From: Variovorax dokdonensis
GTDB taxonomy: Bacteria; Pseudomonadota; Gammaproteobacteria; Burkholderiales; Burkholderiaceae_C
DNA length: 64,000 nt
Reading direction: 5' to 3'
Assembly (NCBI RefSeq): GCF_030316895.1
Contig: NZ_JASZYV010000001.1
Coordinates: 496,001 to 560,000 of the forward strand
The position numbers were made by a program, and so were the translations under genes. The notes under the pieces were generated by a model. It ran no database searches. It was not told the origin of the DNA and saw only the letters and a program-made list of their open reading frames with translations. Of this stretch, positions 33,451 to 59,274 are shown in pieces. Position 1 is the stretch's first letter. The number at the start of each line of letters is the position of its first letter.

Positions 33451-34881
33451 ATGCAACAACACACTCGCTTCTACATCGACGGCCAATGGGTCGACCCGGT
33501 CGAGCCGCGCACGCTCGACGTGATCAACCCTTCCAACGAGGAGCCCTTCGCCCGCATCAGCATGGGCAGTGCTGCGGACGTCGACAAGGCCGTGGCGGCG
33601 GCCCGTCGTGCGTTCGAGACCTTCTCGCAGACCAGCGTTCAGGAGCGGGCCGATCTGCTGGAGAAGATTCTCGGCGTCTACCAGCAGCGCTTCGGCGACA
33701 TCGTGCAGGCCATCTCGCAGGAGATGGGCGCGCCGCTGTGGCTGTCCAAGGCGGCCCAGGCGGCCGTGGGCGTGGCGCATCTGTCGCAGACGCTCCAGGT
33801 GCTCAAGAACTTCGAATTCGAGCAGACGCAAGGCACCACGGTGCTCCGGCATGAGGCAGTGGGCGTGGTGGGGATGATCACGCCCTGGAACTGGCCGATC
33901 AACCAGATCATGTGCAAGGTGGCGCCCGCACTGGCCGCCGGATGCACGATGGTGCTCAAGCCGTCGGAGGTGGCGCCGATCAATGCCATTCTGGTGGCCG
34001 AGGTGCTCCACGAGGCCGGCGTGCCGCCGGGCGTCTTCAACCTCGTCAACGGCGACGGTCCCTCGGTGGGCCAGGCCATGGCCGCGCATCCCGACATCGA
34101 CATGATGACCTTCACCGGTTCCACGCGCGCGGGCATCGCGGTGGCCAAGGCGTCGGCCGATACGGTCAAGCGCGTGACGCAGGAACTGGGTGGCAAGTCC
34201 GCCAACATCGTGCTCGACGATGCAGACCTGGAGGCTGCCGTGGCGCAGGGCGTGCAGACGTGCTTCGTCAATTCCGGCCAGAGCTGCAACGCGCCTACGC
34301 GAATGTTCGTGCCGCGCGCCTTGCAGGACCGAGCGATTGCCGCCGCCAAGGCTGCCGCCGAGGCAACGCCGACGGCCGACGCACTTGCCGATGGCATGCA
34401 CATCGGCCCGGTGGTCAGCCAGCTTCAGTTCGACCGCATCCAGTCGCTGATCCGCGCGGGTATGGAAGAGGGCGCAACGCTGGTGGCTGGCGGCCCCGGT
34501 CGCCCCGAAGGCATCGCCAAGGGTTATTTCGTGCGACCCACCGTGTTCGCCGATGTGCGCAACGACATGACCATCGCGCGCGAGGAAATCTTCGGTCCGG
34601 TTCTCGTGATCCTGCCGTATGACACCGAAGAAGACGCGATCCGGATGGCCAACGCGTCCGCCTATGGCCTGTCGGGCTATGTGCAGTCGGCAAGCCTTGA
34701 GCGCGCCCAGAAAGTGGCAGCACGCCTGCGCACGGGCATGGTCCACCTCAACGGTGCCGGTCCCGACTTTGGCGCGCCATTCGGCGGCTACAAGCAATCG
34801 GGCAACGGTCGCGAATGGGGTGAGCACGGTTTCCGCGAGTACCTCGAAGTCAAGGCTGTCATGGGGCACGCCCAAGCCTGA
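33451..34881 (+). CDS. NAD(P)-dependent aldehyde dehydrogenase
   Basis: A 476-residue aldehyde dehydrogenase. Visible are Asn147 in the TPWNWP motif, Lys170 for cofactor binding, FTGSTRAG, the general base Glu245 (QELGGKS) and the catalytic Cys279 (NSGQSCN). The length and all key residues are normal, so it should be active, turning an aldehyde into its acid. It lies 19 bases after the dioxygenase, whose product it most likely oxidises. A hairpin with a T-rich tail follows the stop. Confidence 0.95.
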   Translation: MQQHTRFYIDGQWVDPVEPRTLDVINPSNEEPFARISMGSAADVDKAVAAARRAFETFSQTSVQERADLLEKILGVYQQRFGDIVQAISQEMGAPLWLSKAAQAAVGVAHLSQTLQVLKNFEFEQTQGTTVLRHEAVGVVGMITPWNWPINQIMCKVAPALAAGCTMVLKPSEVAPINAILVAEVLHEAGVPPGVFNLVNGDGPSVGQAMAAHPDIDMMTFTGSTRAGIAVAKASADTVKRVTQELGGKSANIVLDDADLEAAVAQGVQTCFVNSGQSCNAPTRMFVPRALQDRAIAAAKAAAEATPTADALADGMHIGPVVSQLQFDRIQSLIRAGMEEGATLVAGGPGRPEGIAKGYFVRPTVFADVRNDMTIAREEIFGPVLVILPYDTEEDAIRMANASAYGLSGYVQSASLERAQKVAARLRTGMVHLNGAGPDFGAPFGGYKQSGNGREWGEHGFREYLEVKAVMGHAQA

Positions 34882-34893
34882 GCATGGCCTCTC

Positions 34894-34934
34894 GCAGCCG
34901 TCGTCCGCCGGACACGGCTGCTTCCGTTTCATTT
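34894..34934 (+). terminator. Terminator after the aldehyde dehydrogenase gene
   Basis: Stem GCAGCCGT/ACGGCTGC with an inner GTCC/GGAC extension (one bulged C) and a GCC loop, followed by TTCCGTTTCATTT. It starts 13 bases after the stop codon. Confidence 0.55.
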
Positions 34935-34937
34935 GCT

Positions 34938-34974
34938 CACTGCGCGTAACGCCAGCGCGGCGTTGCGCGCAGTG
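34938..34974. repeat. Long perfect hairpin of unknown role
   Basis: A 16-bp stem (CACTGCGCGTAACGCC with GGCGTTGCGCGCAGTG, one T-G pair on one strand) around a 5-base loop AGCGC. No T-run follows on either side, so it is not a standard terminator. It could be a REP-like element, an mRNA-stabilising 3' structure or a protein-binding site. Confidence 0.6.
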
Positions 34975-35252
34975 CCGTCTTGCGCGCCGCACGAAAACCG
35001 ATCACGCGCACTCGGTTTGCTTGAAGCACCTTGGTGCGCCGCATGCACAGGCCTGAAGCATCGCGCGATGGCCTCGTTGAAGGCGCGTAGGACAAGGCTC
35101 ACCGCCTCCTACACCGAAGAACCGCGCGCACGCGGGCCGTCTTCGCTATCAAAATCGAACCTTGCGCCTTGAATGACCCCGGACACCAGCGGTGCTCGGC
35201 ATGTTGTTTCGTGCGCTTCAACGCGCCGACCCATTGAAGTGCATCGATGCGG

Positions 35253-35268
35253 TGGCATCGAATTTGCA
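35253..35268 (+). promoter_or_regulatory. Sigma-54-type (-24/-12) promoter of the exopolysaccharide operon
   Basis: TGGCATCGAATTTGCA has the GG and GC dinucleotides ten bases apart that define RpoN promoters, and matches TGGCAC-N5-TTGCA at nearly every constrained position. Transcription would start near 35280, giving a leader of about 77 bases. An enhancer-binding activator would be needed, and none is encoded in the window. Confidence 0.5.
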
Positions 35269-35356
35269 CGTTCAGGAAGCGAGCACAACACGAGGAGACA
35301 ACGGCCCGACGAATGTCGGTTACATGTTTGTTTGATCTAGACCTTCGGGAGTTCTG

Positions 35357-36772
35357 ATGCTGTCTACTTCTGCAACTGGCTTCCGCGAGGCTTCGCTGCC
35401 GGCGCTGGGCAAGCTCAACCCGTTGCTGGACCTCATCCTGAGGGGCGGGGATCTTGTTCTCTTCGTGGTGAGCGGCATGCTCGCCTTTGCCTTGCGATTC
35501 GGGCATCTGGACATGGGCGACGACTACGTCCATGCGATCTGCCGAGGCGTTCTGTTCGCCGTCATCATCTTCAACGGCGGTTCTCTTTACCGCAGGTGGC
35601 GCGGCCGCACGACGGCCAACGAGGCGCTCAAGGTCGCTGCCCTGTGGCCGCTTCTGTTCTGCGTGATGGCGGTCTATGCGCTTGCGGTGCGCGACGGGCA
35701 GGATGTCTCCCGCATCTGGTGGGCTTGCTGGCTGGTGCTCAGCATGTCCGGGGCGCTTCTCCTGCGCATGGCGGTCCGGGCGCGTTGGCTGAGTGCGCGA
35801 CGCGTCGACATCCGCAACTCCGTGGTGGTGGGCGCCAATCCGGAGGCACAACGCCTCGTCGATGCGATTCGTGGCGACGATCTGTGCGGCATCGAAGTAC
35901 ATGGCTGGTTCGCCACGCATGCGGATCGCTGCGAACTGACTGGCGCCCCGATGATCGGCCGCCTCGATGGCCTGGCCGCCTATGTCGAGTCGCGCGGCAT
36001 CGACCTCGTCTGGCTGGCGCTGCCGATGCGCGATCAGGCCAAGATCTCGTATGCGCTGAGCCAACTCAAGCACTCGACCGCCGACGTCAAGCTCGTACCC
36101 GACCTGTTCGGCCTGCATCTGCTCAATCACTCGGTGGAAGAAGTGGTCGGCCTGCCGGTCATCACGTTGCAACAGACGCCGCTGCAAGGCGCGGCGCGCG
36201 TGGTCAAGGCGGTGGAAGACCGGGCGCTGGCGCTGCTGATCCTGTTGCTCATCTCGCCGCTGATGCTCGCCATCGCCGCCGCGGTCAAGCTCAGCTCGCC
36301 GGGGCCGGTCTTCTACCGGCAAGAGCGCGTGAGTTGGAACAACCGCAGGTTCTGGATGTACAAGTTCCGCTCGATGCCGGTGGATGCCGAGCAGCGATCT
36401 GGCGCCGTGTGGGCCAAGGCCGGAGAGTCGCGCGCCACCAGGGTTGGCGCCTTCCTGCGCAAGACCAGCCTGGACGAACTGCCGCAGTTCTTCAACGTTC
36501 TGGTGGGCGACATGTCGATCGTCGGGCCACGCCCTGAGCGCCCCGTCTTCGTCGAGCAGTTCAAGAACCAGATTCCCGACTACATGAAGAAGCACATGGT
36601 CAAGGCGGGCATTACCGGTTGGGCACAGGTGAACGGTTGGCGCGGTTCGACCGACCTCAACCGGCGCATCGAGTGCGACATCTACTACATCGAAAACTGG
36701 TCGCTCAAGTTCGACCTGCAGATCATCGCGTTGACCCTGCTCAAGGGCTTCGTCAACAAGAACGCCTATTGA
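35357..36772 (+). CDS. Undecaprenyl-phosphate sugar phosphotransferase (WcaJ-like priming enzyme)
   Basis: A 471-residue polyprenyl-phosphate hexose-1-phosphate transferase that attaches the first sugar to undecaprenyl phosphate in the inner membrane. The N-terminal half has about four membrane spans and a Rossmann-like CoA-binding domain ([19 protein letters not shown]). A fifth membrane segment ([20 protein letters not shown]) precedes the catalytic domain, with [30 protein letters not shown] and VGPRPERP. The tail [17 protein letters not shown] is family-typical. As first gene of the exopolysaccharide run it primes the repeat unit. GGGAG precedes the ATG. Which sugar is used (often glucose) cannot be read. 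Confidence 0.94.
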
Positions 36773-36808: not shown

Positions 36809-37909
36809 ATGAAGGTCGCACTGGTTCACTATTGGCTGGTTGGCATGCGCGGCGGCGAGAAGGTGCTCGAAGCGTTGTGCGACCTGTACCCGGACGCGGA
36901 CATCTTCACGCTGGTGTGCGACGTCGACGCCATTTCCGAGAAGATCCGGCGCCATCGCATCACCACGTCGTTCCTGCAGAAGATCGGCGGCGTTCGGCAC
37001 TACCAGAAGATGCTGCCGCTGATGCCCTATGCGCTGGAGTCATTCGACCTGACCGGCTACGAGCTGATCATCTCGGTCGAGGCGGGGCCGGCCAAGGGCA
37101 TCATTCCCGGCCCCGGAGCCACGCACATCTGCTACTGCAATTCGCCGATGCGCTACATCTGGGATCTGTATCCACAATACCGCGCGTCGGTCGGGCCGCT
37201 GGCGCGCGCCGTCATGTCGCTCACCGCGCCGTCGCTGCGCCAGTGGGATGTGACCACCTCGGCTCGCGTCGACCACTTCATCGCCAACTCGGCCTATGTG
37301 GCCCGACGCATCGAGCGCTACTACCGGCGCAGCGCGCATGTGGTGCATCCGCCGGTGGACCTTCCGCGCTTCAGGGCGGCGGCTCAGGTGGACGACTACT
37401 ACCTGTGCGCAGGCCAGATCACGCCCTACAAGAAGGTGGATCTGGCGGTGGAAGCATGCACGCGCCTCGGGCGCCGACTGGTGGTGATCGGCTCCGGCGC
37501 CACGCCGGCGCTGCGCCGCCTGGCCGGCCCGACGGTCGAGTTCCTCGGGCCCGTCGATGACGCGACGATGGTCCATCACTTCTCGCATTGCAAGGCGCTT
37601 CTGTATCCGGGCATTGAGGACTTCGGCATCGTTCCACTCGAAGTCATGGCGAGCGGCCGGCCCGTGATCGCATTTGCCCAGGGTGGGGCGCTGGAGACCA
37701 TCGTCGAAGGCCGCACAGGGCTGTTCTTCGACGATCAATCCGTAGGCGGCCTGATGGAGGCGATCGAGCGCTTCGAAGCCGAGTGGGAGCCCGTGATGCC
37801 CGAAGTCCTGCAAGCGCATGCGCGCGGCTTCGACACCGGCGTCTTCAAGGCCCGCATGGCCGAACTCATCGGCCTCTTGGTCAATGCGTCGCCACAGATG
37901 GTGGACTGA
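36809..37909 (+). CDS. Glycosyltransferase family 4
   Basis: A 366-residue retaining GT-B glycosyltransferase adding a sugar to the lipid-linked intermediate at the inner face of the membrane. The N-terminus MKVALVHYWLVGMRGGEKVL and the C-terminal E-x7-E motif EDFGIVPLEVMASGRPVIA are characteristic. YLCAGQITPYKKVDLAVEA is the linker to the nucleotide-sugar domain. AAGGAGAAGG lies upstream of the ATG. Donor and acceptor sugars are not visible. It follows the priming enzyme by 36 bases in the same run. Confidence 0.93.
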   Translation: MKVALVHYWLVGMRGGEKVLEALCDLYPDADIFTLVCDVDAISEKIRRHRITTSFLQKIGGVRHYQKMLPLMPYALESFDLTGYELIISVEAGPAKGIIPGPGATHICYCNSPMRYIWDLYPQYRASVGPLARAVMSLTAPSLRQWDVTTSARVDHFIANSAYVARRIERYYRRSAHVVHPPVDLPRFRAAAQVDDYYLCAGQITPYKKVDLAVEACTRLGRRLVVIGSGATPALRRLAGPTVEFLGPVDDATMVHHFSHCKALLYPGIEDFGIVPLEVMASGRPVIAFAQGGALETIVEGRTGLFFDDQSVGGLMEAIERFEAEWEPVMPEVLQAHARGFDTGVFKARMAELIGLLVNASPQMVD

Positions 37910-37924
37910 AAACGCAGGGCGCGC

Positions 37925-39409
37925 ATGGAAGCCATCCCCATCGCCATCTTCTGGAGCATCGCGCTGTGGTGCCTCTTGCAGCGCAAGCAGGCCTTGCTGT
38001 ACCTGTTCTTCGCGTCGATGCCGTTCGGGTCCTTTGCCGTGATCCCCACGCAAGTCACCGGTGGGCTGACCCTGACGCCGACGCCGATCGTGGCGCTCAT
38101 GCTGATCGCCCGCGAACTGGGTTCGATGCGGGCCCTGGGTCAGGCCCTGGACATGGCGCTTCGGCGGTCCGGGCTCTTGCTGCTGTTCGCGTTCTGGGTC
38201 GTCGCCGGGGTGGTCACGCTGTTCATGCCGCGCTTCTTCGCCGGCATGGTGGAAGTGGTGCCTGTGCGTGCGGGCGCCCTGTCGGACACCACGCTGCTGG
38301 TGCCGACCACGCAGAACTTTTCGCAGCTCATCTACGTGAGCATCTCGGTGCTGGCCGTGTTCGCCTTCGCGCGCCTGCTTCAGGCCGACGAGATGCGGCG
38401 CCATGCCCTGGCGGCGCTGCTGCTGGGGGCGGCATTGACCGCCTTGACCGGCGCGTTGGACCTCGCCTCGCAATACGTGCCCATCGGGCTCGCCCTGGAG
38501 TTGTTTCGCACGGCCAGCTATGAGTTGCTGACCGACGTGGAGGTCCTGAGCGCCAAGCGAGTGGTGGGCCTGACGCCGGAGGCCTCGTCCTATGGCGCGC
38601 TGGCGCTGACATTCCTGGCTGCGTTGTACTTCTTCCGCCGGGCGATGCCCGCGGGCTTCGTGCGCCGCCGCCTGGTGCCTGCGCTGATGGGCGTGCTGCT
38701 GCTGTTGATCTGGCTGTCCACCTCGTCGGCGGCATACCTCGGACTGGGGCTGTTCGGCGCCGCGGCAGCGGCCGACTGGTGCTTCCGCTTGGCGGCTCCA
38801 GTCTCTCAGACCTATTTGCGCCGTGGCCTGGCCGGCGAGTTCGCTCTGGCGGTGGTCACGCTGTGCGTCTTGCTGATGATCGTGCTGGCCAAGCCTGGCC
38901 TGCTGGCACCGATGAGGGAGATGTTCGACCTGATGGTGCTGCAGAAGTCCAGCAGCAGTTCGTTCGAAGAGCGCAGCATGTGGACGCACGTGTCGCTGAA
39001 CGCCCTGTTCGCCACGCACGGACTCGGCGTGGGGCTGGGCGGGACGCGCGCATCCAATTTCGCCGTGGCGCTGGCCAGCAATGCCGGTGTTCTGGGCGCG
39101 GCGCTGTATTTCCTGTTCGTGCTCCAGTGCCTCGCATTTCGCAACCCGGCGCGCGGCGACGCCAAGGGCGTCGCATTGCTTTCCGGCATTCGATGGACCT
39201 ATCTGCCGGCCTTCTTCACCGGGCTGATGATCGGCACCACGCCGGACTTCGGGCTGTTCAATGCATTTCTCTTCGGCTTCGCGACGGCGATCACCTGCAG
39301 GCGTGCGCGCACCCGTGCGGCCCTGACCCCTTCGGCATCGCTGCAGCCGCAGGCCTATGTTCAACCCATGCGCCCGCGGGCGCTGCGGAGCCTGCGTGCA
39401 CAGCCATGA
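37925..39409 (+). CDS. Polysaccharide polymerase/O-antigen-ligase-like membrane protein
   Basis: A 494-residue protein with about ten to twelve hydrophobic segments and a large loop in the C-terminal half holding SSSSFEERSMWTHVSLNALF followed by THGLGVGLGGTRASN. That loop is the type seen in Wzy polymerases and O-antigen ligases (Wzy_C region). Between a glycosyltransferase and a flippase gene it is most likely the Wzy that joins repeat units in the periplasm. Sequence conservation in this class is weak, so the assignment rests on topology and context. Confidence 0.82.
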   Translation: MEAIPIAIFWSIALWCLLQRKQALLYLFFASMPFGSFAVIPTQVTGGLTLTPTPIVALMLIARELGSMRALGQALDMALRRSGLLLLFAFWVVAGVVTLFMPRFFAGMVEVVPVRAGALSDTTLLVPTTQNFSQLIYVSISVLAVFAFARLLQADEMRRHALAALLLGAALTALTGALDLASQYVPIGLALELFRTASYELLTDVEVLSAKRVVGLTPEASSYGALALTFLAALYFFRRAMPAGFVRRRLVPALMGVLLLLIWLSTSSAAYLGLGLFGAAAAADWCFRLAAPVSQTYLRRGLAGEFALAVVTLCVLLMIVLAKPGLLAPMREMFDLMVLQKSSSSSFEERSMWTHVSLNALFATHGLGVGLGGTRASNFAVALASNAGVLGAALYFLFVLQCLAFRNPARGDAKGVALLSGIRWTYLPAFFTGLMIGTTPDFGLFNAFLFGFATAITCRRARTRAALTPSASLQPQAYVQPMRPRALRSLRAQP

Positions 39410-40958
39410 GGGCCCCAGCGTAGCAAGCCGCGCGGTCGGGGCAGGCGCCTGGACGGTGGGCACGCGCCTGTTGGCCAAGCTGATCGACCTGGCCATGTTG
39501 CTGTGCCTGGCACGCTTTCTAGGGCCTGCGGAGTTCGGCCTGGTGGCCATGGCCATGGCCGCGGTGTTCATCATCGAAGCCTTGTTCGACCTGCCCACGG
39601 CGGCCGCGCTCATCCGCCTGCCCGAACTGGAGCCGGACATGCTCCACACCGCCTTCACACTCAGCCTGCTGCGGGGCGTGGTGGTGGGCTTGCTGCTGAT
39701 CGCAGTTGCATGGCCGCTGGCGGCCTTCAACAACGAACCACGGGTGGCGCTGCTGATGGTCGTTCTGGCTCTGGCGCCGGCGATGCGCGGTCTGGTCAAC
39801 CCCCGCATGGTCGAGTACGCGCGGGCCTTGAACTTCAGGCCCGATGCGCTGCTGGAGCTCTCCGGCAAAGTCGTCGCCTTCGTGGTCGCGGTGAGCATTG
39901 CGGCCGCCACGCGCAGCTTCTGGGCCATTGCCGCGGCCACGGTTTGTGCGCCGCTCGTATCGACCGTGCTGTCGTACGTCATTGCGCCGATCCGGCCGCG
40001 CCTGCGCCTGACGCATTGGCCGCAGTTCTCGAGCCTGATCGGCTGGAACTTCGTTTCGCAGTGGTTCTCCGCGCTCAACTGGCAGATCGATCGGCTGGTC
40101 CTGCCGCGTGTGACCGACGCTGGCGCCTTCGGCCAGTACACCATGGGGCGGCAGTTGGCGGAGGTGCCCAGTCAGGTGCTGATTCAGCCGCTGGTGCGCC
40201 CCGTGATGCCGACGCTGGCCTCGGCGGGCGATGCACGGCAGTCGCGCTATCTCAAGCTGTCGCACGCCATCGCGGTGGTGATGTTGCCCGTCATGGGTCT
40301 GCCGCTGCTGTGGCCCGAGCCGCTGGTGCGCGTGGCGCTCGGGCCCGCCTGGAGCGGCGCGGCCCAGTGGCTGCTGTGGATCAGCGCGATCACCGTGATC
40401 GGCCTGCCAGGCCTGCTGCTCGCACCCTTGGCCATGACCCTTGATCGCACGCGCTGGCTCGCATTCCGGACGACAGTGGAATTCCTGGTCAGGCTGCCGC
40501 TGGTGTGGATCGGCGCGGTGCACTACGGCATTCTGGGGGCCGTGGCCGCAAGCGCGGTGGCGTCGGCGGTGGGCATGGTGGTCGGGCTGTTCGTCGTTCG
40601 ACATCTCATCGCCACCAGCCTCGCGGCGCAGTTGATGACGCTGCTGCGCCCCGTGCTCGCCATGGTGCCGGCGGCGGGCTTCCTGTGGTGGACCAAGCCA
40701 TGGGTGATGGGCGCGCCCGGCCTGATTGATCTGCTGTTGCGTGCCGTACCGCTGGGGCTGCTCTATCTGTTCATCTACATGCTGGCGACGCTGGTGGCCT
40801 GGCAACTGGCCGGACGGCCGGGCGGGTTGGAGCAACACCTCGTGGGCGTGGTCCGAACGCGTGTACAGAAGCCGCTATCCCGCCGTGCGCGGACTTCCGG
40901 CCGCAGCCGGCCGCATCCACGCCATCCGAAGGAGGCGCATGTCGAACAACCCCATTGA
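39396..40958 (+). CDS. Wzx-type polysaccharide flippase
   Basis: A 520-residue MOP-superfamily (WzxC-like) flippase with about 12 to 14 hydrophobic spans, moving the lipid-linked repeat unit across the inner membrane. The opening SRAVGAGAWTVGTRLLAKLI and LARFLGPAEFGLVAMAMA are typical. The start is set at a GTG with GGAG five bases upstream, inside the last 14 bases of the previous gene. An ATG 13 codons earlier (39357) is possible but would add a Cys-rich, polar extension. It overlaps the next glycosyltransferase by 20 bases. Confidence 0.9.
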   Translation: MHSHEGPSVASRAVGAGAWTVGTRLLAKLIDLAMLLCLARFLGPAEFGLVAMAMAAVFIIEALFDLPTAAALIRLPELEPDMLHTAFTLSLLRGVVVGLLLIAVAWPLAAFNNEPRVALLMVVLALAPAMRGLVNPRMVEYARALNFRPDALLELSGKVVAFVVAVSIAAATRSFWAIAAATVCAPLVSTVLSYVIAPIRPRLRLTHWPQFSSLIGWNFVSQWFSALNWQIDRLVLPRVTDAGAFGQYTMGRQLAEVPSQVLIQPLVRPVMPTLASAGDARQSRYLKLSHAIAVVMLPVMGLPLLWPEPLVRVALGPAWSGAAQWLLWISAITVIGLPGLLLAPLAMTLDRTRWLAFRTTVEFLVRLPLVWIGAVHYGILGAVAASAVASAVGMVVGLFVVRHLIATSLAAQLMTLLRPVLAMVPAAGFLWWTKPWVMGAPGLIDLLLRAVPLGLLYLFIYMLATLVAWQLAGRPGGLEQHLVGVVRTRVQKPLSRRARTSGRSRPHPRHPKEAHVEQPH

Positions 40959-42195
40959 ACCGACCGCGCGGCATCCAGATGCCGCGATCAGGCTCGTCAT
41001 CAACGGCAAGTTCCTGCAGCCGTCCACGAGCCGCTCGGGCGTCTACCGGGTCGCCCGGGAGATGCTGGTGGCTTTGGACCGAATGCTGGCCGACGACCCG
41101 GCACTGGCGGCACGCGTCGATTGCCGGCTGATGCTGCCGAGAGACCAGGATCCGGGCCTTCCGCTCTCGCGCATCCAGGTCGAGCGTCGCCAGGATGCGC
41201 GCCGGCTCGGCTCGCGCTTCGACCGCTTCTACGGTGTTCTTTGGGAACAGACGGTGCTGCCCTGGCGCTCGCGGGGCGCGACGCTCATCAGCCTGTGCAA
41301 CATCGGGCCGGTGGCTCGCCGCGACGCATTCACCATGGTGCACGACGCACAGGTCTACAGCTCGCCTGCGTCCTACTCGTTGGCGTTTCGATCCTGGTAC
41401 CGGCTGGTTCTGCCTCTGCTGGGCAGGCGCAACAGGTCGCTGCTGACCGTGTCGGGCTACTCGAAGGCGCAGCTCGTGCAATTCGGCGTGGCCGAGGCGG
41501 AGCGGATCCGCGTCATCCACAACGGTTGCGATCACGTCAAGCGCCTCGTGCCGGATGCGGATGCGGTGCATTCGCTGGGCCTCAATGGCGACCAGTTCGT
41601 CCTGGCACTGGCCAATCTCCAGCCGCACAAGAACATCGCGATGTTGCTCCAAGCCTTTGAATCGCAGGCGCTTGCCAACGTCACGCTGGCGTTGTTCGGC
41701 CCGGCCAAGCGAGAAGACTTCGAGCGACAGGGCCACGTGGTGCCGCCCAATGTGCGCTTCCTGGGCTTCGTCAGCGATGAACAACTGGCCGGGCTGCTGA
41801 AGGCGGCGACGGCGCTCGCGTTTCCGTCCACCACCGAGGGCTTCGGCCTGCCTCCGCTGGAGGCGATGCTGCTGGGATGCCCGACCATCGCGGCGCCGTG
41901 CGGCGCTTTACCCGAAGTGTGCGGTGACGCCGTGCTCTGGGCAGACGCACGATCGCCGGACCAATGGGCCGAGCAGATCCTTCGCTGCTGCATCGACCCG
42001 GCCTTGCGCGACGAAATGCGCGCACGCGGCCGGGGGCAGGCGGCGCGCTTCACCTGGGCGCGAGCGGTGGAAGGCCTGCTGGCGACCGTTTCGGGGGTGC
42101 CGCAAGTCATCCGGGAGTACGAGCCGTCCGACCGCGAAACTCAGGCGCGCGAGGGCACCGCTGTGGCGCGAGATGCGTTCGCATCGCGGACTTGA
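40939..42195 (+). CDS. Glycosyltransferase family 4 (GT-B)
   Basis: A 418-residue glycosyltransferase. The N-terminal SRSGVYRVAREM loop, the central TVSGYSKAQLVQFGVAEAER and the donor-binding LALANLQPHKNIAMLLQAF and STTEGFGLPPLEAMLLGCP (E-x7-E) are those of family 4. AAGGAGG lies before the ATG, inside the flippase gene. It should add one of the later sugars of the repeat unit; the sugar is unknown. Confidence 0.93.
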   Translation: MSNNPIEPTARHPDAAIRLVINGKFLQPSTSRSGVYRVAREMLVALDRMLADDPALAARVDCRLMLPRDQDPGLPLSRIQVERRQDARRLGSRFDRFYGVLWEQTVLPWRSRGATLISLCNIGPVARRDAFTMVHDAQVYSSPASYSLAFRSWYRLVLPLLGRRNRSLLTVSGYSKAQLVQFGVAEAERIRVIHNGCDHVKRLVPDADAVHSLGLNGDQFVLALANLQPHKNIAMLLQAFESQALANVTLALFGPAKREDFERQGHVVPPNVRFLGFVSDEQLAGLLKAATALAFPSTTEGFGLPPLEAMLLGCPTIAAPCGALPEVCGDAVLWADARSPDQWAEQILRCCIDPALRDEMRARGRGQAARFTWARAVEGLLATVSGVPQVIREYEPSDRETQAREGTAVARDAFASRT

Positions 42196-42209: not shown

Positions 42210-43268
42210 ATGACGCACGCATCCACATCACGCCTTCTCTCGCTGGATGGCATGCGCGGCCTGGCGGCCATTGCGGTGATCGCCTGGCACCTGGAGTTCA
42301 TCGGCGCCTTCGCGCAGAGCGGCTATCTGGCGGTGGACTTCTTCTTTGTCATGAGCGGTGTGGTCATCGCGAGGGCCTACCGGCAGCGGCTGCACAACGG
42401 GTTGCCGACATTCGACTTTTTCGCGGAGCGCGTCATCCGGCTGTATCCGCTGTACCTGCTGGGGCTGCTGATCGGGCTGACGCGCCTGACGGGGCAGATC
42501 GTCGCCGGTCACCCCAACAGCCTGAGCTGGTCGGAGCTGGGCATCAGCGCGGCGTTCAATCTGCTGATGCTGCCCACGCCGGCGACGACGTTCTTGGCGC
42601 CCATCAACATTCCTTCGTGGTCGCTGTTCTTCGAGCTGCTGGTCAATGTTTTCTGGGCGGCGGTGCTCCTGCGGGCGTCCAGACGGGTTCTGATCGCGGC
42701 GGTCGTCTTTCTCTATGCGGCGCTGTCGCTGGCGGTGATGGATGCGGGCTCAGCGCAAGGCGGCTGGATCTGGTCCGAGTTCCACGTCGGCTTGCTGCGC
42801 AGCCTGTTTGGTTTCCTGCTGGGTGTGCTGATGGCGCAGACCATCGATGCGAGTCCGCCCCGCAAGTCGTGGTGGACGCTGGTCGCGGCGGCGGCGCTGT
42901 GTGCGCTGCTGGCGGCGGACGTGCCGCAGCCGTATCGACCGCTCTTCGATCTTGGCGTCATCCTGGTGGCCTCTCCGGCCATCGTGTGGGTCGGCATGCG
43001 CTTCGATCCTCCGGCCTGCTGCGAGGCGGCGGCGCGCGCGCTGGGGGACATGTCGTTCCCGGTGTACGTGCTGCACTTCGGGCCGCTGTTCAGCATCTCC
43101 TTCCTCGCGCGAAAGCTGGACATCAGCCCTGCGCTCTGGATTCCGTCGTTCGTCCTTGGCATCTGCGCGGTGTCGCTGTACCTCGCCCGTACCTACGACC
43201 CGTGGGCGCGCGGCAAGCTCAAGCGATTGCTGGCCGGTCGACGCCTTCGCATGACCTGGGTGGCATGA
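42210..43268 (+). CDS. OafA/YrhL-like integral-membrane acyltransferase
   Basis: A 352-residue acyltransferase-3 protein with about ten membrane segments. SLDGMRGLAAIAVIAWH near the N-terminus carries the conserved Arg16 and His27 thought to act in acyl transfer, and FFFVMSGVVIARAYRQR is the second family motif. It probably adds acetyl or another acyl group to the polysaccharide. It starts 14 bases after the previous glycosyltransferase. The C-terminus is basic (KLKRLLAGRRLR). Confidence 0.92.
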   Translation: MTHASTSRLLSLDGMRGLAAIAVIAWHLEFIGAFAQSGYLAVDFFFVMSGVVIARAYRQRLHNGLPTFDFFAERVIRLYPLYLLGLLIGLTRLTGQIVAGHPNSLSWSELGISAAFNLLMLPTPATTFLAPINIPSWSLFFELLVNVFWAAVLLRASRRVLIAAVVFLYAALSLAVMDAGSAQGGWIWSEFHVGLLRSLFGFLLGVLMAQTIDASPPRKSWWTLVAAAALCALLAADVPQPYRPLFDLGVILVASPAIVWVGMRFDPPACCEAAARALGDMSFPVYVLHFGPLFSISFLARKLDISPALWIPSFVLGICAVSLYLARTYDPWARGKLKRLLAGRRLRMTWVA

Positions 43269-43314: not shown

Positions 43315-44199
43315 ATGAGCCTGAAGATTGCCGTTGCCATCGCCACTGCTGGCCGCCGCGAGGTGCTGGCGGACACCATCCGCTGGATGGCCCGTCAGAG
43401 CCGGCCTGCGCAAGAACTGCTGGTCTGTCCCGCCAGGCCTGCAGACCTCGACGCGGCTTGCCTCGAAGACTTTCCATGGCCGACGCGTGTCGTGTCCGGC
43501 CCCATCGGATTGCCGGCGCAGCGCAATGCATTGATCGACGCCACCGATGCGGACCTGGTCGTCTTCTTCGACGATGATTTCCTGCCCGCCGATGACTTCC
43601 TGCAGCAGGCGGAGGATCTGTTCACCACGCAGGCCGGCGTCATGATCGCCACCGGCGATGTGTTGGCCGACGGCATCCTCGGTCCTGGGCTCACGCATGA
43701 GGAAGGCGTCCAGGTGCTCTCGCGCGCCGCCGCACGCGACATGCCGGCCGCGCTGACGCCCACGTTCAACGCCTACGGCTGCAACATGGCCATCAGGATG
43801 GCGCCCGTTCGTGCGCACGGCTATCGCTTCGACGAGCACCTGCCGCTCTACGCATGGCTGGAGGATGTGGACTTCTCGCGGCAACTGGCACCGCACGGAC
43901 TGATCGTCAAATGGACGGCCCTGCGGGGCGTGCATCTGGGCACCAAGCGATCGGGTCGCAGCCCTGGCAAACAGCTGGGCTATTCGCAGGTGGCCAATCG
44001 GGTCTACATCATGCGCAAAGGCCGCATGTCGGCCTGGCAGGCGGTGAACGGCAACCTGCGCAACATCATGGCCAATCTGGTCAAGAGCCTGCGGCCGGAA
44101 CCGTGGGTCGATCGACGCGGGCGGCTGGAGGGCAACTTCATCGCGTTGTGGGACTGGGTGCGCGGGCGTGTGGACCCCGAGCGCATCCTCCGCTTCTGA
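43315..44199 (+). CDS. Glycosyltransferase family 2
   Basis: A 294-residue GT-A inverting glycosyltransferase. It opens IAVAIATAGRREVLADTIRW, and the metal- and nucleotide-binding DxD region is VVFFDDDFLPADDF. The acceptor-side YAWLEDVDFSRQL carries the usual late acidic motif. No membrane span is seen, so it acts at the cytoplasmic face of the membrane. It lies in the same run, 46 bases after the acyltransferase gene, and is followed by a second family 2 gene. Confidence 0.92.
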   Translation: MSLKIAVAIATAGRREVLADTIRWMARQSRPAQELLVCPARPADLDAACLEDFPWPTRVVSGPIGLPAQRNALIDATDADLVVFFDDDFLPADDFLQQAEDLFTTQAGVMIATGDVLADGILGPGLTHEEGVQVLSRAAARDMPAALTPTFNAYGCNMAIRMAPVRAHGYRFDEHLPLYAWLEDVDFSRQLAPHGLIVKWTALRGVHLGTKRSGRSPGKQLGYSQVANRVYIMRKGRMSAWQAVNGNLRNIMANLVKSLRPEPWVDRRGRLEGNFIALWDWVRGRVDPERILRF

Positions 44200-44213: not shown

Positions 44214-45098
44214 ATGGGTGCAACCAAGGTTTCGCTGGTGATGTCCACGCTGGGCAGGGTGGACGAGGTGCTCCAGTTCATCGCCGGGCTGGAGCGGCTG
44301 GAACATCGCGACTTCGAACTGATCATCGTTGACCAGAACGACGACACGCGTCTGCACGACGCCTGCGCCAACGTGGCCCCGAGCTTTGCGCTGCATTACC
44401 TCCGAAGGCCGGACATCAAGGGTCTCAGCCGCGGGCGCAACCTGGGGCTCGGTCAAGCCAGTGGGGACATCGTCTGCTTTCCGGATGACGATTGCCTGTA
44501 CCCCCCGACCCTCGTCAGCAAGGTCCTGGCGCGCTTCGAGGAGACCGGCTGCGACGTCCTTTGCGGGCGGGCCGCCGCCCTGGATGGACGCTCCATCAAT
44601 GGTCGCTTCGAGACCAGCGCGCAGCATGTGGACCTGCGCAACGTATTCACCACGCAGATCGAATGGGTGGTGTTCTTCAAGCGCCAGGTGCTGCAAAGGC
44701 TGGAGGGTTACGACGAGGACATCGGCGTCGGCGCATCCACGCCGTGGCAATCCTGCGAAGGCCCCGAGATCACCATCCGGGCCATCCAGGCGGGGTTCGG
44801 CGTGTACTACGACCCCGAGATCTATGCACACCATCCGGAGCTCAACACGCAGCATCCCGATCGGGCGATGCGCCAGAAGGGCCGGCGCTATGCGCGCGGG
44901 ATGGGCTACGTCATCAAGAAGCACAGCTACGGATTTCCGTACCTTGCCAAGTACCTGGTGCGGCCGATCGGTGGTGCCTGCGTGTCGCTGCTCAAGGGCA
45001 ACCTGCGCCGCGTCTTCTACTACCTGAACGTGGCAGCGGGGCGGGCAGAAGGCTACATGGGCATCTGCCTGGAAGGCGGTCGCCTGCAGAAAAAGTAG
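44214..45098 (+). CDS. Glycosyltransferase family 2
   Basis: A 294-residue GT-A protein: VSLVMSTLGRVDEVLQFI at the start, GLSRGRNLGLGQASGDIVCF and DDDC as the DxD region, then a late TPWQSCEGPEITIRA motif. The basic C-terminus may touch the membrane. The ATG at 44214 is used; a GTG three codons earlier is possible, and neither has a convincing ribosome site. It is the last gene of the plus-strand run and meets the autokinase gene tail to tail with 18 bases between the stops. Confidence 0.9.
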   Translation: MGATKVSLVMSTLGRVDEVLQFIAGLERLEHRDFELIIVDQNDDTRLHDACANVAPSFALHYLRRPDIKGLSRGRNLGLGQASGDIVCFPDDDCLYPPTLVSKVLARFEETGCDVLCGRAAALDGRSINGRFETSAQHVDLRNVFTTQIEWVVFFKRQVLQRLEGYDEDIGVGASTPWQSCEGPEITIRAIQAGFGVYYDPEIYAHHPELNTQHPDRAMRQKGRRYARGMGYVIKKHSYGFPYLAKYLVRPIGGACVSLLKGNLRRVFYYLNVAAGRAEGYMGICLEGGRLQKK

Positions 45099-45116: not shown

Positions 45117-47402
45117 TCAACCTGCGCGCGCCAGATCCTGCTCGTCGTGCCGGTAGCTGCCCACGCGGTAGCTCTGACTGCCCTTGTAGCGGTGGTGGAC
45201 GTTCATGTCGTTGAACAGCACGCCGCTGATCTGCGCACCAGCCTGGGTCAGCCGCCGGATGCTTTCGCTGAGCTCGCCCAGTTCGCTCTGCTCGGCCCGA
45301 GCGACGAGCAGCACCACGCCGCATTCCGGCGCCACCGCCGCAGCGTCGGCGGCCACCAGCACCGGCGCGGAGTCGATCACCACCAGGTCGTAGCGTGGCG
45401 ACAGCATCTCCAGCGTCTGGACGAAGGCATCGGACTCCAGCACATCGGCGGGAAGATCGGGCAGGCGGCCGGTGGTCAACACATCCAGGTTGGGACGAAC
45501 GCCCGCATGAATGGCCCGTTCGGCACTCAGCGTGCCGGCCAGCACTTCGGAAAGTCCGCCTTCACGAGAAAGGCCGAAGACGCCGTCGAGCGCGCCGCCC
45601 TTGCGAAGGTCGGCATTGATCAGCAGGACGTGCTTGCCGCGCTGTGCCATCAGCGTGGCGAAGTTGCTGGCGATGAAGCTCTTGCCGATGCCGGGCGTCG
45701 CGCCGGTGATCAGGATGCGATTGTTCCGCGCCTCGGCCATTGCGGGTTTGAGGCCCACGCGCAGTGCGCGCAAGGCCTCGATCGGCCGGCTGTGCGGGTG
45801 CGAATCCGCCAGCAGGGCAGTACCGCCTTCACGGTCGCCGCGCCGATCGAGCTGCAGTTGTTCCGGGCTGTGGGGCACCACCGCGTACACATCCAGCCCG
45901 GTGAGGTCTTCGATCTCCGTCGGGTTGCGCACGCCCGACTTGGTGCGGGCGCGCAGCACGGCCAGACCGGGACCGAGCAGACCACCGAGCAGGAGCGCGA
46001 AGGCCAGGATCAGCGACTTCTGGGGCTTGACCGGGAACTTGGGCACCACGGCTCGGTCGAGCAGGCGCACGTTGCCGATCTTGCCTTCCTTGACCAGCCG
46101 CATCTGCAGCGCGTTGTTCTGCATGGACTGGTACAGGGCGCTGTTGACGCGCACATCGCGCTCCAGGCGCAGGGCGTCTCGCTGGAGATTCGGCATGCCG
46201 GCGATGCGGGTGTTGAGCGAATCGAGGTCCTTCTTCAACGCGCCGATCTGCTTGTTCAGGATCTGCATGCGCTGGCTGCGATCGGTGAACGTCATCTCGG
46301 ACTCCCGCTTGCGCTGCTCCAGTTCGAGCAGGTTGCCTTGCAGGTCGGAAGTCCGCTTCAGCCAGACCTTGGCCTCTTCGTCGAAGTTGACCGTGCCGTT
46401 CTTGTTGCGAAAGCGTGCATATGCGTCTTCCGAGGCCTGGAGCCGGCGCAGGAAGATGGGAAGTTGCGCATCGAGGAAGGCCAGCGTCTTCTCCGCTTCC
46501 TCCGAGCGCCGCGCCATGTTCTGGTTGACGTACTGGTCGCCGATGGCGTTGAGCACGCGGGCCAGCCGTTGCGGGTCGGTGTCTTCGAGGCTGACCCCGA
46601 TGACGTTGGACTGCCGTCCCTGTTCGCCCAGTTGCAACTGTTGCTGCAGTTGTTCGACGGTGCGCAGACGCGAAGCCACGGACAAGGTGAACTGCGCCCC
46701 AGGCTTGCCGTCGAGCCGGCTCAGTTCGATCTCGATGTCGCCGTCGGGTTGCGAAGCCCGCAGCCTCTGCCCGACACGCCCTTCGAGCACCGCGTCAAGC
46801 AGTTCGTGCGTGACGGTGTAGCGGCCGTCGCCCTGGGCCGTCACGACAAAGGGCTTGGTGTCTTCCAAGGACGGCGGCACGCTCGCATGCGCCACCTGGA
46901 TGCGTTCCTTGCCCGAGACGTATCCGCCAAGACCGAACAGGCCGGGGTCAGACAAACCGGTTGCATGCCGCGACAGCCAGCGGCCCACCGCCGGGATGTA
47001 GCGCGGCGCGGCACTGACTTGCAGATTCGTCTGGTCCACCGCCCCGCCGAGCACCATGCGCGAGGCCAGCACCTGGATTTCACCGGTCGCAGGCGTCTTG
47101 ACCTCGAAAAGGCCGGAGGCTTCGTTCAGCGCGTTCTTGCTGTCGGGCAGGGCATCTTCGACCTGCAGCAGGAGCCCGGAGCGGTAGACCGGCGGCGCGA
47201 AGATGGCGTAGGCCAGGCCGATGAAGCCGGCAAGCACGATCACGCCGGCGATCAACCACTTGTGGTCGACCAGAATGTCCCAGTACTCGGAGAGCCGGGG
47301 TGCTTCTTCCTCGGCGTCGAAGGTCATGCTGGCATTGCCAGACATGCGCTGAAGATGTTGTTGACGGTTGCCAGTCGTCTGGGCGATCAGGGTTCGGCTC
47401 AT
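45117..47402 (-). CDS. Wzc-like polysaccharide co-polymerase with tyrosine autokinase domain
   Basis: A 761-residue inner-membrane protein controlling chain length and export. A Wzz domain starts at RLSEYWDILVDHKW with membrane span LIAGVIVLAGFIGLAYAIF; a long coiled-coil periplasmic region follows, then a second span (SLILAFALLLGGLLGPGLAV). The cytoplasmic kinase domain has Walker A ATPGIGKS near residue 565, Walker A' LLINADLRKG and Walker B VVIDSAPVL. Asn596 stands where Walker A' normally has Asp; Asp598 is kept. The C-terminal tail carries only three Tyr (RYKGSQSYRVGSY). It is transcribed against the glycosyltransferase run, behind the FHA gene. Two later Met codons could also serve as start. 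Confidence 0.92.
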   Translation of the reverse strand: MSRTLIAQTTGNRQQHLQRMSGNASMTFDAEEEAPRLSEYWDILVDHKWLIAGVIVLAGFIGLAYAIFAPPVYRSGLLLQVEDALPDSKNALNEASGLFEVKTPATGEIQVLASRMVLGGAVDQTNLQVSAAPRYIPAVGRWLSRHATGLSDPGLFGLGGYVSGKERIQVAHASVPPSLEDTKPFVVTAQGDGRYTVTHELLDAVLEGRVGQRLRASQPDGDIEIELSRLDGKPGAQFTLSVASRLRTVEQLQQQLQLGEQGRQSNVIGVSLEDTDPQRLARVLNAIGDQYVNQNMARRSEEAEKTLAFLDAQLPIFLRRLQASEDAYARFRNKNGTVNFDEEAKVWLKRTSDLQGNLLELEQRKRESEMTFTDRSQRMQILNKQIGALKKDLDSLNTRIAGMPNLQRDALRLERDVRVNSALYQSMQNNALQMRLVKEGKIGNVRLLDRAVVPKFPVKPQKSLILAFALLLGGLLGPGLAVLRARTKSGVRNPTEIEDLTGLDVYAVVPHSPEQLQLDRRGDREGGTALLADSHPHSRPIEALRALRVGLKPAMAEARNNRILITGATPGIGKSFIASNFATLMAQRGKHVLLINADLRKGGALDGVFGLSREGGLSEVLAGTLSAERAIHAGVRPNLDVLTTGRLPDLPADVLESDAFVQTLEMLSPRYDLVVIDSAPVLVAADAAAVAPECGVVLLVARAEQSELGELSESIRRLTQAGAQISGVLFNDMNVHHRYKGSQSYRVGSYRHDEQDLARAG

Positions 47403-47551
47403 GCGGGGCCCTCGGTCGGTGAAAGGAGCGCGACAGGTCAAAGATCAAGACCGTCTTCGACGTGCAGGTTCCGTGCCCGTCGCCCCGTGGGGAAGCGTTC
47501 TGTAACACCGAGGGCCCGCCGAATGATCTCGACGGGTCAGTTTGGTTCGTC

Positions 47552-47625
47552 GAAGCGCGCGTCAGAGTAGGACGGCGCGCTTCGTGTCTCGTCAGGGCGC
47601 GGCTTGTTGCTTGCGCGCCGCGCCC
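47552..47625 (-). terminator. Two hairpins between the FHA gene and the autokinase gene
   Basis: Hairpin one (47595-47625) has a 9-bp stem GGGCGCGGC/GCCGCGCCC just after the FHA stop. Hairpin two (47552-47583) has GAAGCGCGC/GCGCGCTTC plus an inner GTC/GAC. Neither ends in a T-run. They may weaken read-through, protect the FHA message or fold into alternative structures that control the autokinase gene. Confidence 0.35.
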
Positions 47626-47628
47626 GGA

Positions 47629-48036
47629 TCAGGCGAAGGCAAAGCGCTTGGCGGCCGGCGAGCTCGGTGGTTGCTTGGCGGCATCCAGGGCCTGCAACGT
47701 TCCGGGAATGGTCACCAGTCGCAGGGCATCGGCTTCGCTCAGCTCGCGGGTGTCGAACAGGAAGCGGATCTCGCAGTCGCCCATGGTGATCATGTCGCCG
47801 TTGCGCAGCTTTTGCCGATCGACCCTCAGGCCGTTGACGAAAGTCCCGTTGCGACTGCCGGCGTCCATCAGTGCATAGTGGTCACCATCCCAATCGATCA
47901 CGGCGTGCTGGCGGCTGATCAATTCGCTGTCGATGATCAGCGAGTTGCCTTCATTGCGGCCAATGGTGGTCAGGCGTCCGCTCACGCTGACTTGGCGGAT
48001 ACGGCCACCCTTCGTCAAGATGATGAGTCGCGGCAT
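47629..48036 (-). CDS. FHA-domain protein
   Basis: A 135-residue protein that is little more than one forkhead-associated domain, which binds phosphothreonine peptides. The key residues are Arg27 (IGRNEGN), Ser41-Arg42-His44 (ISRQHAVI) and Asn63-Gly64-Thr65 with Asn68 (SRNGTFVNG), all intact. No other domain or membrane span is seen. It lies 226 bases upstream of the autokinase on the same strand. It could dock phosphorylated partners, perhaps targets of the Ser/Thr kinase at 57 kb, to the polysaccharide machinery. That link is inference. Confidence 0.9.
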   Translation of the reverse strand: MPRLIILTKGGRIRQVSVSGRLTTIGRNEGNSLIIDSELISRQHAVIDWDGDHYALMDAGSRNGTFVNGLRVDRQKLRNGDMITMGDCEIRFLFDTRELSEADALRLVTIPGTLQALDAAKQPPSSPAAKRFAFA

Positions 48037-57278: not shown

Positions 57279-58286
57279 ATGTCAAAGGTCAAACCATCGC
57301 CGCTTCTGCCGGACACGATGATCGGCGGGTACCGCGTCGTGCGCCGCCTGTCGGCGGGCGGCTTCGGCGTGGTCTACCTTGCGGTTGACAGCTCGGGCCA
57401 GCAGGTGGCCATCAAGGAATACCTGCCCTCGTCGCTGGCGACCCGTGGCGCGGGCGAGCTGCTGCCGGTGGTGCCGCCCGAAAAGCTGTCGCTCTATCGC
57501 CTGGGACTCAAGAGCTTCTTCGAGGAAGGCCGTTCGCTGGCGCAGATTGCGCATCCGTCGGTGGTGAGCGTGCTCAACTTCTTTCGGGAAAACGAGACGG
57601 TCTACATGGTGATGAACTACCTGGAGGGCGCCACCCTGCAGGACTTCATCGTGACCGCGCGCGATTTGAAGAAGCAGAAGATCTTCCGCGAATCGACCAT
57701 CCGTTCGCTCTTCGACGAGATCCTGCGCGGCCTACGCATCGTGCACCAGCACAAGATGCTGCACCTGGACATCAAGCCGGCCAACATCTTCGTCACCGAC
57801 GACGACAAGGCCGTGATGATCGACTTCGGCGCCGCACGCGAGGTGCTGAGCAAGGAAGGCAACTTCATCCGTCCCATGTACACGCCCGGCTTTGCCGCGC
57901 CCGAGATGTACCGGCGCGATTCGTCGATGGGCCCGTGGACCGACATCTACGCCATCGGCGCGTGCATCTATGCCTGCATGCAGGGCTACCCGCCCAGCGA
58001 CGCGCCCCAGCGCATCGAGAAAGACCGCCTGTCGCTGTCGCTCGCCCGGCTGCGCGGGGTGTATTCGGACAACCTGATCGAGGTGGTCGAGTGGTGCATG
58101 TCGCTCGATCCGCTATCGCGGCCGCAATCGGTGTTCGCGCTGCAAAAGGAGCTCAGCCGCGAAGGCGAGCGGCGCTACACCAAGCTCACCATGAGCGAGA
58201 AGGTGCGCCTGTCGATCGACAACATCCGCTCTTCCGACAAGAAGCCGCTGCCAAAGGCGGCCGCGCCCACCACCCGCCCCGCATGA
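57279..58286 (+). CDS. Hanks-type Ser/Thr protein kinase
   Basis: A 335-residue cytoplasmic kinase with no membrane span or sensor domain. The Gly-rich loop is LSAGGFGVVYLA, the ATP lysine Lys46 (VAIKEY), the catalytic loop HLDIKPANI with Asp164, and the DFG motif at Asp182. The residue before Asp164 is Leu instead of Arg, so it is a non-RD kinase, which does not need classic activation-loop phosphorylation. APE-like FAAPEMY follows. The C-terminal tail is basic (SSDKKPLPKAAAP). Its stop overlaps a 31-codon frame that leads into the PP2C gene, so kinase and phosphatase are an operon. Confidence 0.94.
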   Translation: MSKVKPSPLLPDTMIGGYRVVRRLSAGGFGVVYLAVDSSGQQVAIKEYLPSSLATRGAGELLPVVPPEKLSLYRLGLKSFFEEGRSLAQIAHPSVVSVLNFFRENETVYMVMNYLEGATLQDFIVTARDLKKQKIFRESTIRSLFDEILRGLRIVHQHKMLHLDIKPANIFVTDDDKAVMIDFGAAREVLSKEGNFIRPMYTPGFAAPEMYRRDSSMGPWTDIYAIGACIYACMQGYPPSDAPQRIEKDRLSLSLARLRGVYSDNLIEVVEWCMSLDPLSRPQSVFALQKELSREGERRYTKLTMSEKVRLSIDNIRSSDKKPLPKAAAPTTRPA

Positions 58287-58378
58287 AGGCAAAAGCACCG
58301 GCATCCCGCTTGTCCCTGGCGGATCGCATGGAGCTCCTGCTGTCTCCCGCCCAACCGTCCGCCGTCCAAACTCCATGA
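58283..58378 (+). CDS. Possible 31-residue bridging ORF between kinase and phosphatase genes
   Basis: An ATG overlaps the kinase stop (ATGA) and the frame runs to a TGA that overlaps the PP2C start (again ATGA). The peptide would be basic at first, then have an amphipathic SLADRMELLLSP segment. A ribosome ending the kinase could restart here and again at the phosphatase, making this a translational bridge. It may also be no more than chance, since the frame is short and has no distinct ribosome site. Confidence 0.4.
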   Translation: MKAKAPASRLSLADRMELLLSPAQPSAVQTP

Positions 58379-59274
58379 AGTTCTCTGTCTTCCAGGTCAG
58401 CCGCAAGGGCGGGCGTCTCAAGAATGAAGACCGCATGGGCTATTGCTACACGCGGGAGTCGGGGCTGTTCGTGCTGGCCGACGGCATGGGCGGGCACCCC
58501 GAGGGCGAAGTGGCCGCGCAACTGGCCCTGCAGACCATCGCCGCGCTCTACCAGCGCGAGGCGCGGCCGGTGCTCAAGGACGTCAAGGCCTTCCTGACCA
58601 ATGCCATCATGCAGGCGCACCAGCAGATCATGCGCTATGCCGGCAACAAGGGCATGCTGGATACGCCGCGAACGACGGTGGTGGCAGCGGTGCTCCAAGG
58701 CACGACGGCCCAGTGGGTCCACTGCGGCGATTCGCGCCTGTACGTCGTGCGCCATGGCGAGATGCTCACCCGCACGCGCGACCATTCCCATGCCGAGCGC
58801 CCGCGCGCAGTGCCTGGCTTCGAGTCGGCCAACCGCAACCTGCTGCTGACCTGCCTGGGCTCTCCGTCGACGCCGCTCTTCGACATGTCCGACCCGCTGA
58901 CGCTCCAGCAGGGCGACCGCATCATGCTGTGCTCCGACGGCCTCTGGAGCGTGATGGACGAGATGCAGCTCATCAACATCCTCGCCACCAGGCCGGTGGC
59001 GGACGCTGCGCCCGAACTGGTGGAAATGGCGCTTCGTCGCGGCGGCGCCCACGGCGACAACGTGACCATGATCGCGCTGGAGTGGGAAACGCCCGACGAC
59101 GGCAACGACCGCGGCATTTCCACCGACAGCATCAACGAAGGCGTGTTCGCTTCCACCATCCAGGCTGGCATGCCCGCCGACAGCGAGGTCGCGGACATGG
59201 ACGAGGACGCCATCGAGCGCTCCATCGCCGAAATCAACGAGGCCATTCGCCGGTCTGCCGCCAAGAAGGGGTGA
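58375..59274 (+). CDS. PP2C-family Ser/Thr protein phosphatase
   Basis: A 299-residue metal-dependent phosphatase. KNEDRMG (Asp19), LADGMGGHPEGE (Asp36-Gly37), CSDGLWSVMD and HGDNVTMIALE give the four metal-binding Asp motifs, all intact. The C-terminal 40 residues are acidic (DEDAIERSIAEINEAI) and may be regulatory. It should reverse phosphorylation by the kinase encoded just upstream. No membrane segment is visible. 54 bases later rph begins. Confidence 0.93.
   Translation: MKFSVFQVSRKGGRLKNEDRMGYCYTRESGLFVLADGMGGHPEGEVAAQLALQTIAALYQREARPVLKDVKAFLTNAIMQAHQQIMRYAGNKGMLDTPRTTVVAAVLQGTTAQWVHCGDSRLYVVRHGEMLTRTRDHSHAERPRAVPGFESANRNLLLTCLGSPSTPLFDMSDPLTLQQGDRIMLCSDGLWSVMDEMQLINILATRPVADAAPELVEMALRRGGAHGDNVTMIALEWETPDDGNDRGISTDSINEGVFASTIQAGMPADSEVADMDEDAIERSIAEINEAIRRSAAKKG

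Follow-up and report, generated by a model that had tools for sequence, protein, structure and literature searches.

Sigma-54 (RpoN) control of exopolysaccharide (EPS) synthesis is already established in general. In Burkholderia cenocepacia, the activator BerB carries a GAFTGA motif, binds c-di-GMP and drives the RpoN-dependent gene berA, which in turn drives the bep genes (available text of PMC5552954 and PMC9684580), and cepacian synthesis in the same species is under NtrC and sigma-54 control as described in the available parts of PMC5491218. Vibrio cholerae VpsR, an EPS regulator with a VpsR domain on the scaffold of a sigma-54 activator (EBP), lacks GAFTGA and works without RpoN, according to the accessible portions of PMC3162934 and PMC5552954; its structure has been solved (7v2b). 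Other Vibrio EPS clusters are under an EBP and sigma-54, namely through SypG in V. fischeri (PMC5552954, available text) and DctD2 in V. vulnificus (PMC9040800, available text), which are other activators serving other gene clusters than the one described here. The PEP-CTERM/exosortase regulon (PrsK-PrsR-RpoN) likewise combines sigma-54 sites with an EPS association, and the transcription start of pepA in Aquincola has been mapped to a sigma-54 site (PMC1569441 and PMC9850573, in the parts available). A literature search on sigma-54/RpoN and EPS in Variovorax returned no description of the locus analysed here, though one may exist elsewhere.

This locus lies in a window of 64,000 nucleotides (64 kb; the whole stretch of DNA analysed) of the Variovorax dokdonensis genome. 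The original prediction placed an eight-gene operon downstream of a sigma-54-like site; the eight genes lie closely packed on the + strand, with gaps of 36, 15, −53, −20, 14, 46 and 14 bp. They encode a WbaP-type sugar phosphotransferase (Bac_transf; 35357–36772), a glycosyltransferase (Glycos_transf_1; 36809–37909), a membrane protein without a Pfam match that from its place is probably the Wzy-type polymerase (37925–39409), a Wzx-type flippase (Polysacc_synt_3; 39357–40958, start codon uncertain), another Glycos_transf_1 glycosyltransferase (40939–42195), an acyltransferase (Acyl_transf_3; 42210–43268) and two family 2 glycosyltransferases (43315–44199 and, as the final gene, 44214–45098). 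Convergent with the operon is the gene for a Wzc-type tyrosine kinase/chain-length protein (45117–47402, − strand, start taken as ATG 47402). An FHA-domain gene adjoins wzc (47629–48036), and protein kinase and PP2C phosphatase genes lie adjacent at 57279–59274.

The site ahead of wbaP, TGGCATCGAATTTGCA at 35253–35268 (+), has the sequence, coordinates and GG-N10-GC spacing originally described; it differs from TGGCACGN4TTGCW at two positions and keeps both GG and GC. From its 3′ end to the wbaP ATG is 88 bp, and with the C of GC (35267) set at −12, transcription is predicted to start at ~35279. A second sigma-54-type site, GGGCACGGAACCTGCA, absent from the earlier list of features, is located at 47463–47478 (−) ahead of the convergent wzc, with a predicted start at ~47452. 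To judge from sequence, these two sites are very probably a sigma-54 promoter pair that places EPS synthesis under sigma-54 control.

The match by itself proves nothing, since TGGCACGN4TTGCW with up to three mismatches occurs 118 times in the 64-kb window against 142 occurrences expected from shuffles. This lack of enrichment is what favours a chance resemblance at 35253–35268, with the operon transcribed from another promoter, a reading that is nonetheless very unlikely given two conserved sites at the locus against upstream DNA at chance level, and no sigma-70-like site at 34880–35360. The scan of that interval for the sigma-70-type consensus found none against 0.1 expected; the claim that the sigma-54-like site is the sole promoter-like element before the operon therefore stands for the sigma-70 type, the scan being silent on other types. 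Sites that keep GG and GC and carry no more than two mismatches number 10 on both strands of the 64 kb, 2 of which precede wbaP and wzc, and TGGCAYN5TTGC occurs 37 times genome-wide compared with 9 for a reversed control. We accept the sigma-54 promoter because conservation of the site is decisive, the match in a single genome being unremarkable.

Full-length wbaP orthologues (78–81% identity) are present in 7 other genomes of the 101 in the genus group. This gives nine wbaP loci in eight genomes, our own included, as G059 has two copies. The wbaP site is intact in seven of the nine loci, and in six of them it lies between −100 and −112 relative to the ATG, namely in the window, G054 (TGGCACCGAAATTGCG), G078 (TGGCACCGATATTGCA), G010 (TGGCACCGAAATTGCA), G090 (TGGCATCGGTTTTGCA) and G059 copy b (TGGCATTGAAATTGCG). 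The seventh, in G012 (record L005), is displaced: an intact site stands at −235 (L005 position 2766), with a decayed version in the usual place before 3001. The intact distal and decayed proximal sites of G012 would fit a past duplication of the promoter region. The site is lost from G059 copy a and from G072, which retains TGACACAAAATTTGCA with the −24 GG broken. Ahead of wzc, the site is intact in seven of the nine gene sets: the window, G010 and G054 (both CGGCACGATTTCTGCT), G012 (TGGAACGATTTCTGCA), G078 (CGGCACGAATTCTGCT), G090 (CGGCACGGTTTCTGCA) and G059 copy b (AGGCACGATTTCTGCT). In the wzc regions of G059 copy a and G072, a search found no intact −24/−12 site. Ungapped pairwise identity over the 16 bp of the wbaP site is 84%, compared with a mean of 26% and a maximum of 36% for upstream DNA, and ungapped identity over the wzc site is 81%, compared with 26% upstream; each comparison covers five of the nine loci, leaving aside G012, G072 and both copies of G059. 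Across the nine gene sets, the wbaP and wzc sites are both intact in seven and both lost in two (G059 copy a and G072), and this paired retention and loss supports joint control, though the two losses may represent one event. In G059, the two EPS gene sets are arranged in tandem (L074, L075 and L211), and each includes a wbaP and a wzc; both −24/−12 sites are kept in the second set and neither in the first.

Beyond these loci, six distant wbaP relatives (L007–L012, 44–65% identity) have no site that keeps GG and GC and differs at two positions or fewer, in up to 600 bp of upstream DNA plus the initial 100 bp of the match. In the family sample, the EPS cluster is found in the V. dokdonensis genome alone (1/399 at E ≤ 1e-120, with the best candidates, up to four per genome, scored). 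One of the distant relatives, in a record titled Xanthomonas massiliensis (L007), has a wbaP that is 65% identical. This similarity, together with the patchy spread of the cluster (8/101 genus genomes and 1/399 in the family sample), suggests that the cluster has spread by horizontal transfer. Co-control of wza is not apparent in our genome: of two Poly_export genes, one has no site within three mismatches and the other a single three-mismatch site. One wza-type gene of G054 (L206) has a sigma-54-like site with one mismatch, TGGCACGGAATTTGCC, 435 bp before its Poly_export domain.

In the mechanism that we propose, the −24/−12 promoter of the Wzx/Wzy-type EPS operon would be one half of a pair, with the other half at the convergent wzc. 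RpoN-RNA polymerase would be held at the two sites in a closed complex, and an EBP bound upstream would open both promoters, turning on the operon for biosynthesis together with the gene for the chain-length kinase. We infer that both sites are active and share one activator, and the EPS coat is probably made only once an activator protein switches both promoters on.

The V. dokdonensis genome encodes one RpoN and six strong EBP domains, a count that leaves out five weak Pfam matches (21–27 bits, over the cut-off). Together with site conservation and the equally conserved wzc promoter, this inventory gives strong support to the original reading of the site as RpoN-dependent. We assign the six EBPs as NtrC, which exceeds its NCBIfam cut-off, a GlrR-like and a PilR-like protein, one EBP with a VpsR domain and two with PAS domains; the GlrR-like and PilR-like labels are presumed from resemblance, neither protein reaching a cut-off. 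The gene for the VpsR-domain EBP (G000:C1:1486386–1487810; PF20161 at 32.0 bits versus a cut-off of 23.7) lies ~0.95 Mb from the EPS operon. Its product keeps GAFTGA at residues 215–220, and a GAFTGA-type motif is found in 30/30 orthologous loci (30 of 31 orthologues examined). The protein occurs in at least 31 of the 101 genus genomes when the best candidates, up to 16 per genome, are scored, and 26 of these 31 have no EPS cluster.

Among the seven related genomes with the cluster, NtrC, the GlrR-like EBP and the PilR-like EBP are each present in 7/7 and the second PAS-domain EBP in 6/7, in an orthologue comparison covering 58 of 59 EBP domains (one G010 fragment left out); for the first PAS-domain EBP (L079), none of the seven gave a match at ortholog level. 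The VpsR-domain EBP is present in four of the seven (G010, G012, G078 and G090), all of which, as our own genome, have intact promoter pairs. G059, assembled as one contig, has four EBPs alone, which are the GlrR-like, NtrC, PilR-like and one PAS-domain type, and no VpsR-domain EBP. An intact promoter pair is thus accompanied by the VpsR-domain EBP in our own genome, G010, G012, G078 and G090, and that of G059 copy b is not. In G059 and G072, the usual neighbour gene, which we take to be hpnE, is present, and neither the VpsR-domain EBP nor a significant remnant of it was found beside that gene. The G054 draft has intact sites and no VpsR-domain EBP, with the neighbour gene also absent and the region running off a contig end; its contig C184 starts inside a gene of the VpsR-domain EBP neighbourhood, presumably hpnC. 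Association of this EBP with the cluster gives a Fisher P of 0.028 with G054 omitted and 0.056 with G054 counted as absent, both ignoring relatedness. A tighter correlation, in which promoter decay tracks loss of the VpsR-domain EBP (5/5 intact with it, 2/2 decayed without it, P 0.048), was rejected on G059 copy b. That copy is either read by one of the four EBPs of G059 or is a relic.

The intact wbaP and wzc sites of G059 copy b, in a genome without the VpsR-domain EBP, make this protein less likely as the activator. Its architecture (PF20161 and GAFTGA) and the precedent that such proteins control biofilm polysaccharides elsewhere place it first, and it may tentatively be regarded as the narrowly leading single candidate. 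If it is the activator, it would tie EPS to a c-di-GMP-type signal. The likeness to RpoN/BerB-Bep, as far as the available text on that system goes, extends to a −24/−12 promoter, an EPS output and a GAFTGA-bearing EBP (residues 208–213 in BerB and 215–220 here). BerB, however, is described in that text as acting on berA, a second regulator, and as being encoded beside the bep cluster, whereas here the sites directly precede genes of biosynthesis, with the candidate EBP encoded 0.95 Mb away and missing from G059. BerB is also reported there to have no N-terminal input domain. With V. cholerae VpsR, as described in the accessible portions of the sources, the protein has in common an EBP scaffold that bears a VpsR domain. 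VpsR, which controls EPS in that species, lacks GAFTGA, whereas the protein considered here keeps the motif and its link to the operon is inferred. Alternatively, the sigma-54 promoters may answer to the PilR-like, the GlrR-like or the second PAS-domain EBP, which taken together is a real possibility, if short of probable: the first two are found in all seven related cluster genomes and the third in six, including G059 with its intact pair and no VpsR-domain EBP, although by resemblance all three are general housekeeping regulators and none is encoded near the cluster.

Upstream DNA was scanned for shared motifs and NtrC sites at 13 intact promoters, with 200 bp upstream taken for hexamers and the wzc promoter of G059 copy b outside the set. 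A search for activator-site repeats, as suggested in the original prediction, yielded at best a candidate hexamer family, GTAGGA/TTGTAG, itself picked post hoc, and no proven site. GTAGGA is present in 5/13 upstream regions compared with a shuffle mean of 0.29, in sequences that are related and not independent; TTGTAG is likewise present in 5/13, and one or the other in 8/13. The largest 6-mer z was 7.3, a value reached by 0/300 shuffled sets (13 regions, related sequences), and 8- and 10-mers with one mismatch allowed showed no excess over shuffles in the 13 regions. Neither hexamer was found in the four decayed loci or at 29 other sigma-54-like sites of our genome, in a comparison that examined 30 of the 37 TGGCAYN5TTGC sites; both are absent from 5/13 promoters and from the 200 bp before the wzc promoter of G059 copy b. 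In the window, an imperfect inverted repeat GTAGGA...TCCTAC at 35087–35112, picked post hoc, is a candidate activator site, and GTAGGAC at 47567–47573 (+) is a candidate activator half-site upstream of the wzc promoter. The top-scoring upstream inverted repeat, TGCGCTTCAA-N12-TTGAAGTGCA at 35212–35243, ends 9 bp before the −24 element and outscores the GTAGGA repeat; we claim no significance for either. Across the 101 genomes, the pattern TTGTAGGA-N20-50-TGGCAYN5TTGC matched at the wbaP promoter in G012 and G078 alone.

A nitrogen signal had been put forward as one possible input. With the NtrC box consensus taken as TGCACCANNNTGGTGCA, no NtrC-like site with up to two mismatches was found in any of the 13 promoter regions. 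Sites with three mismatches occur in five of them, including that of wbaP in the window, at varying positions and with nominal P of 0.01–0.04. As a control, a gene of our genome that we assign to glnA on inspection of its translation carries GGCACCATAATGGTGCA (one mismatch), closely followed by the −24/−12 site TGGCACAGAACCTGCA (L078, ~1834–1906). The nitrogen link is thus unsupported, since no good NtrC site was found here whereas glnA has one; another RpoN activator, as the broader suggestion had it, may be at work. NtrC remains a serious rival because it is encoded in every cluster genome (our own and 7/7 related ones) and because in B. cenocepacia NtrC and sigma-54 are known to control EPS (available parts of PMC5491218). 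That nitrogen limitation induces EPS here through NtrC at the sigma-54 promoter, as it does cepacian, is nevertheless doubtful: the three-mismatch sites are scattered and missing from 8/13.

Membership of the EPS promoter in the PEP-CTERM/exosortase regulon would account for a sigma-54 site at a similar distance from its gene (mean 71 nt in that regulon) and for the association with EPS, both as given in the available text of PMC1569441. None of the six EBPs, however, reaches the 502.6-bit cut-off of the PrsR equivalog (TIGR02915), the best score being 371.4 bits for the VpsR-domain EBP, and the site here precedes EPS biosynthesis genes, a further difference from the regulon as described in the accessible parts of PMC1569441 and PMC9850573. 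We regard this membership as extremely unlikely.

Between the predicted start and the ATG of wbaP, a conserved 5′ leader at 35293–35325 (+) comprises AGGAG, a short stem-loop and TTACAT. It is shared by six of nine related loci (the window, G054, G078, G010, G012 and G090), where the last motif reads GTTACAT (GTGACAT in G054), and its stem-loop shows one compensatory change, A-U to G-C. The element is absent from G059 copies a and b and from G072. Its core pattern has one genomic occurrence within two mismatches, and an Rfam search returned no fitting family, a single sub-threshold microRNA match being dismissed. A leader peptide starting at an ATG inside the stem-loop of the window was considered and rejected because that ATG is not conserved.

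The VpsR-domain EBP and the leader can be joined in a fuller scheme, which as a whole is unlikely. In it, the VpsR-domain EBP would use GAFTGA to open both convergent promoters directly, linking c-di-GMP with the EPS structural genes without a BerA relay; the G059 pair would be a relic or have switched activator, and a further, post-transcriptional check would come from the stem-loop leader.

For EPS control in Variovorax relatives, the locus supplies a defined pair of promoters, each with a predicted 5′ end, and limits the possible activators to six. If the VpsR-domain EBP is responsible, it would represent an intermediate between RpoN-dependent BerB and the RpoN-independent VpsR of Vibrio.
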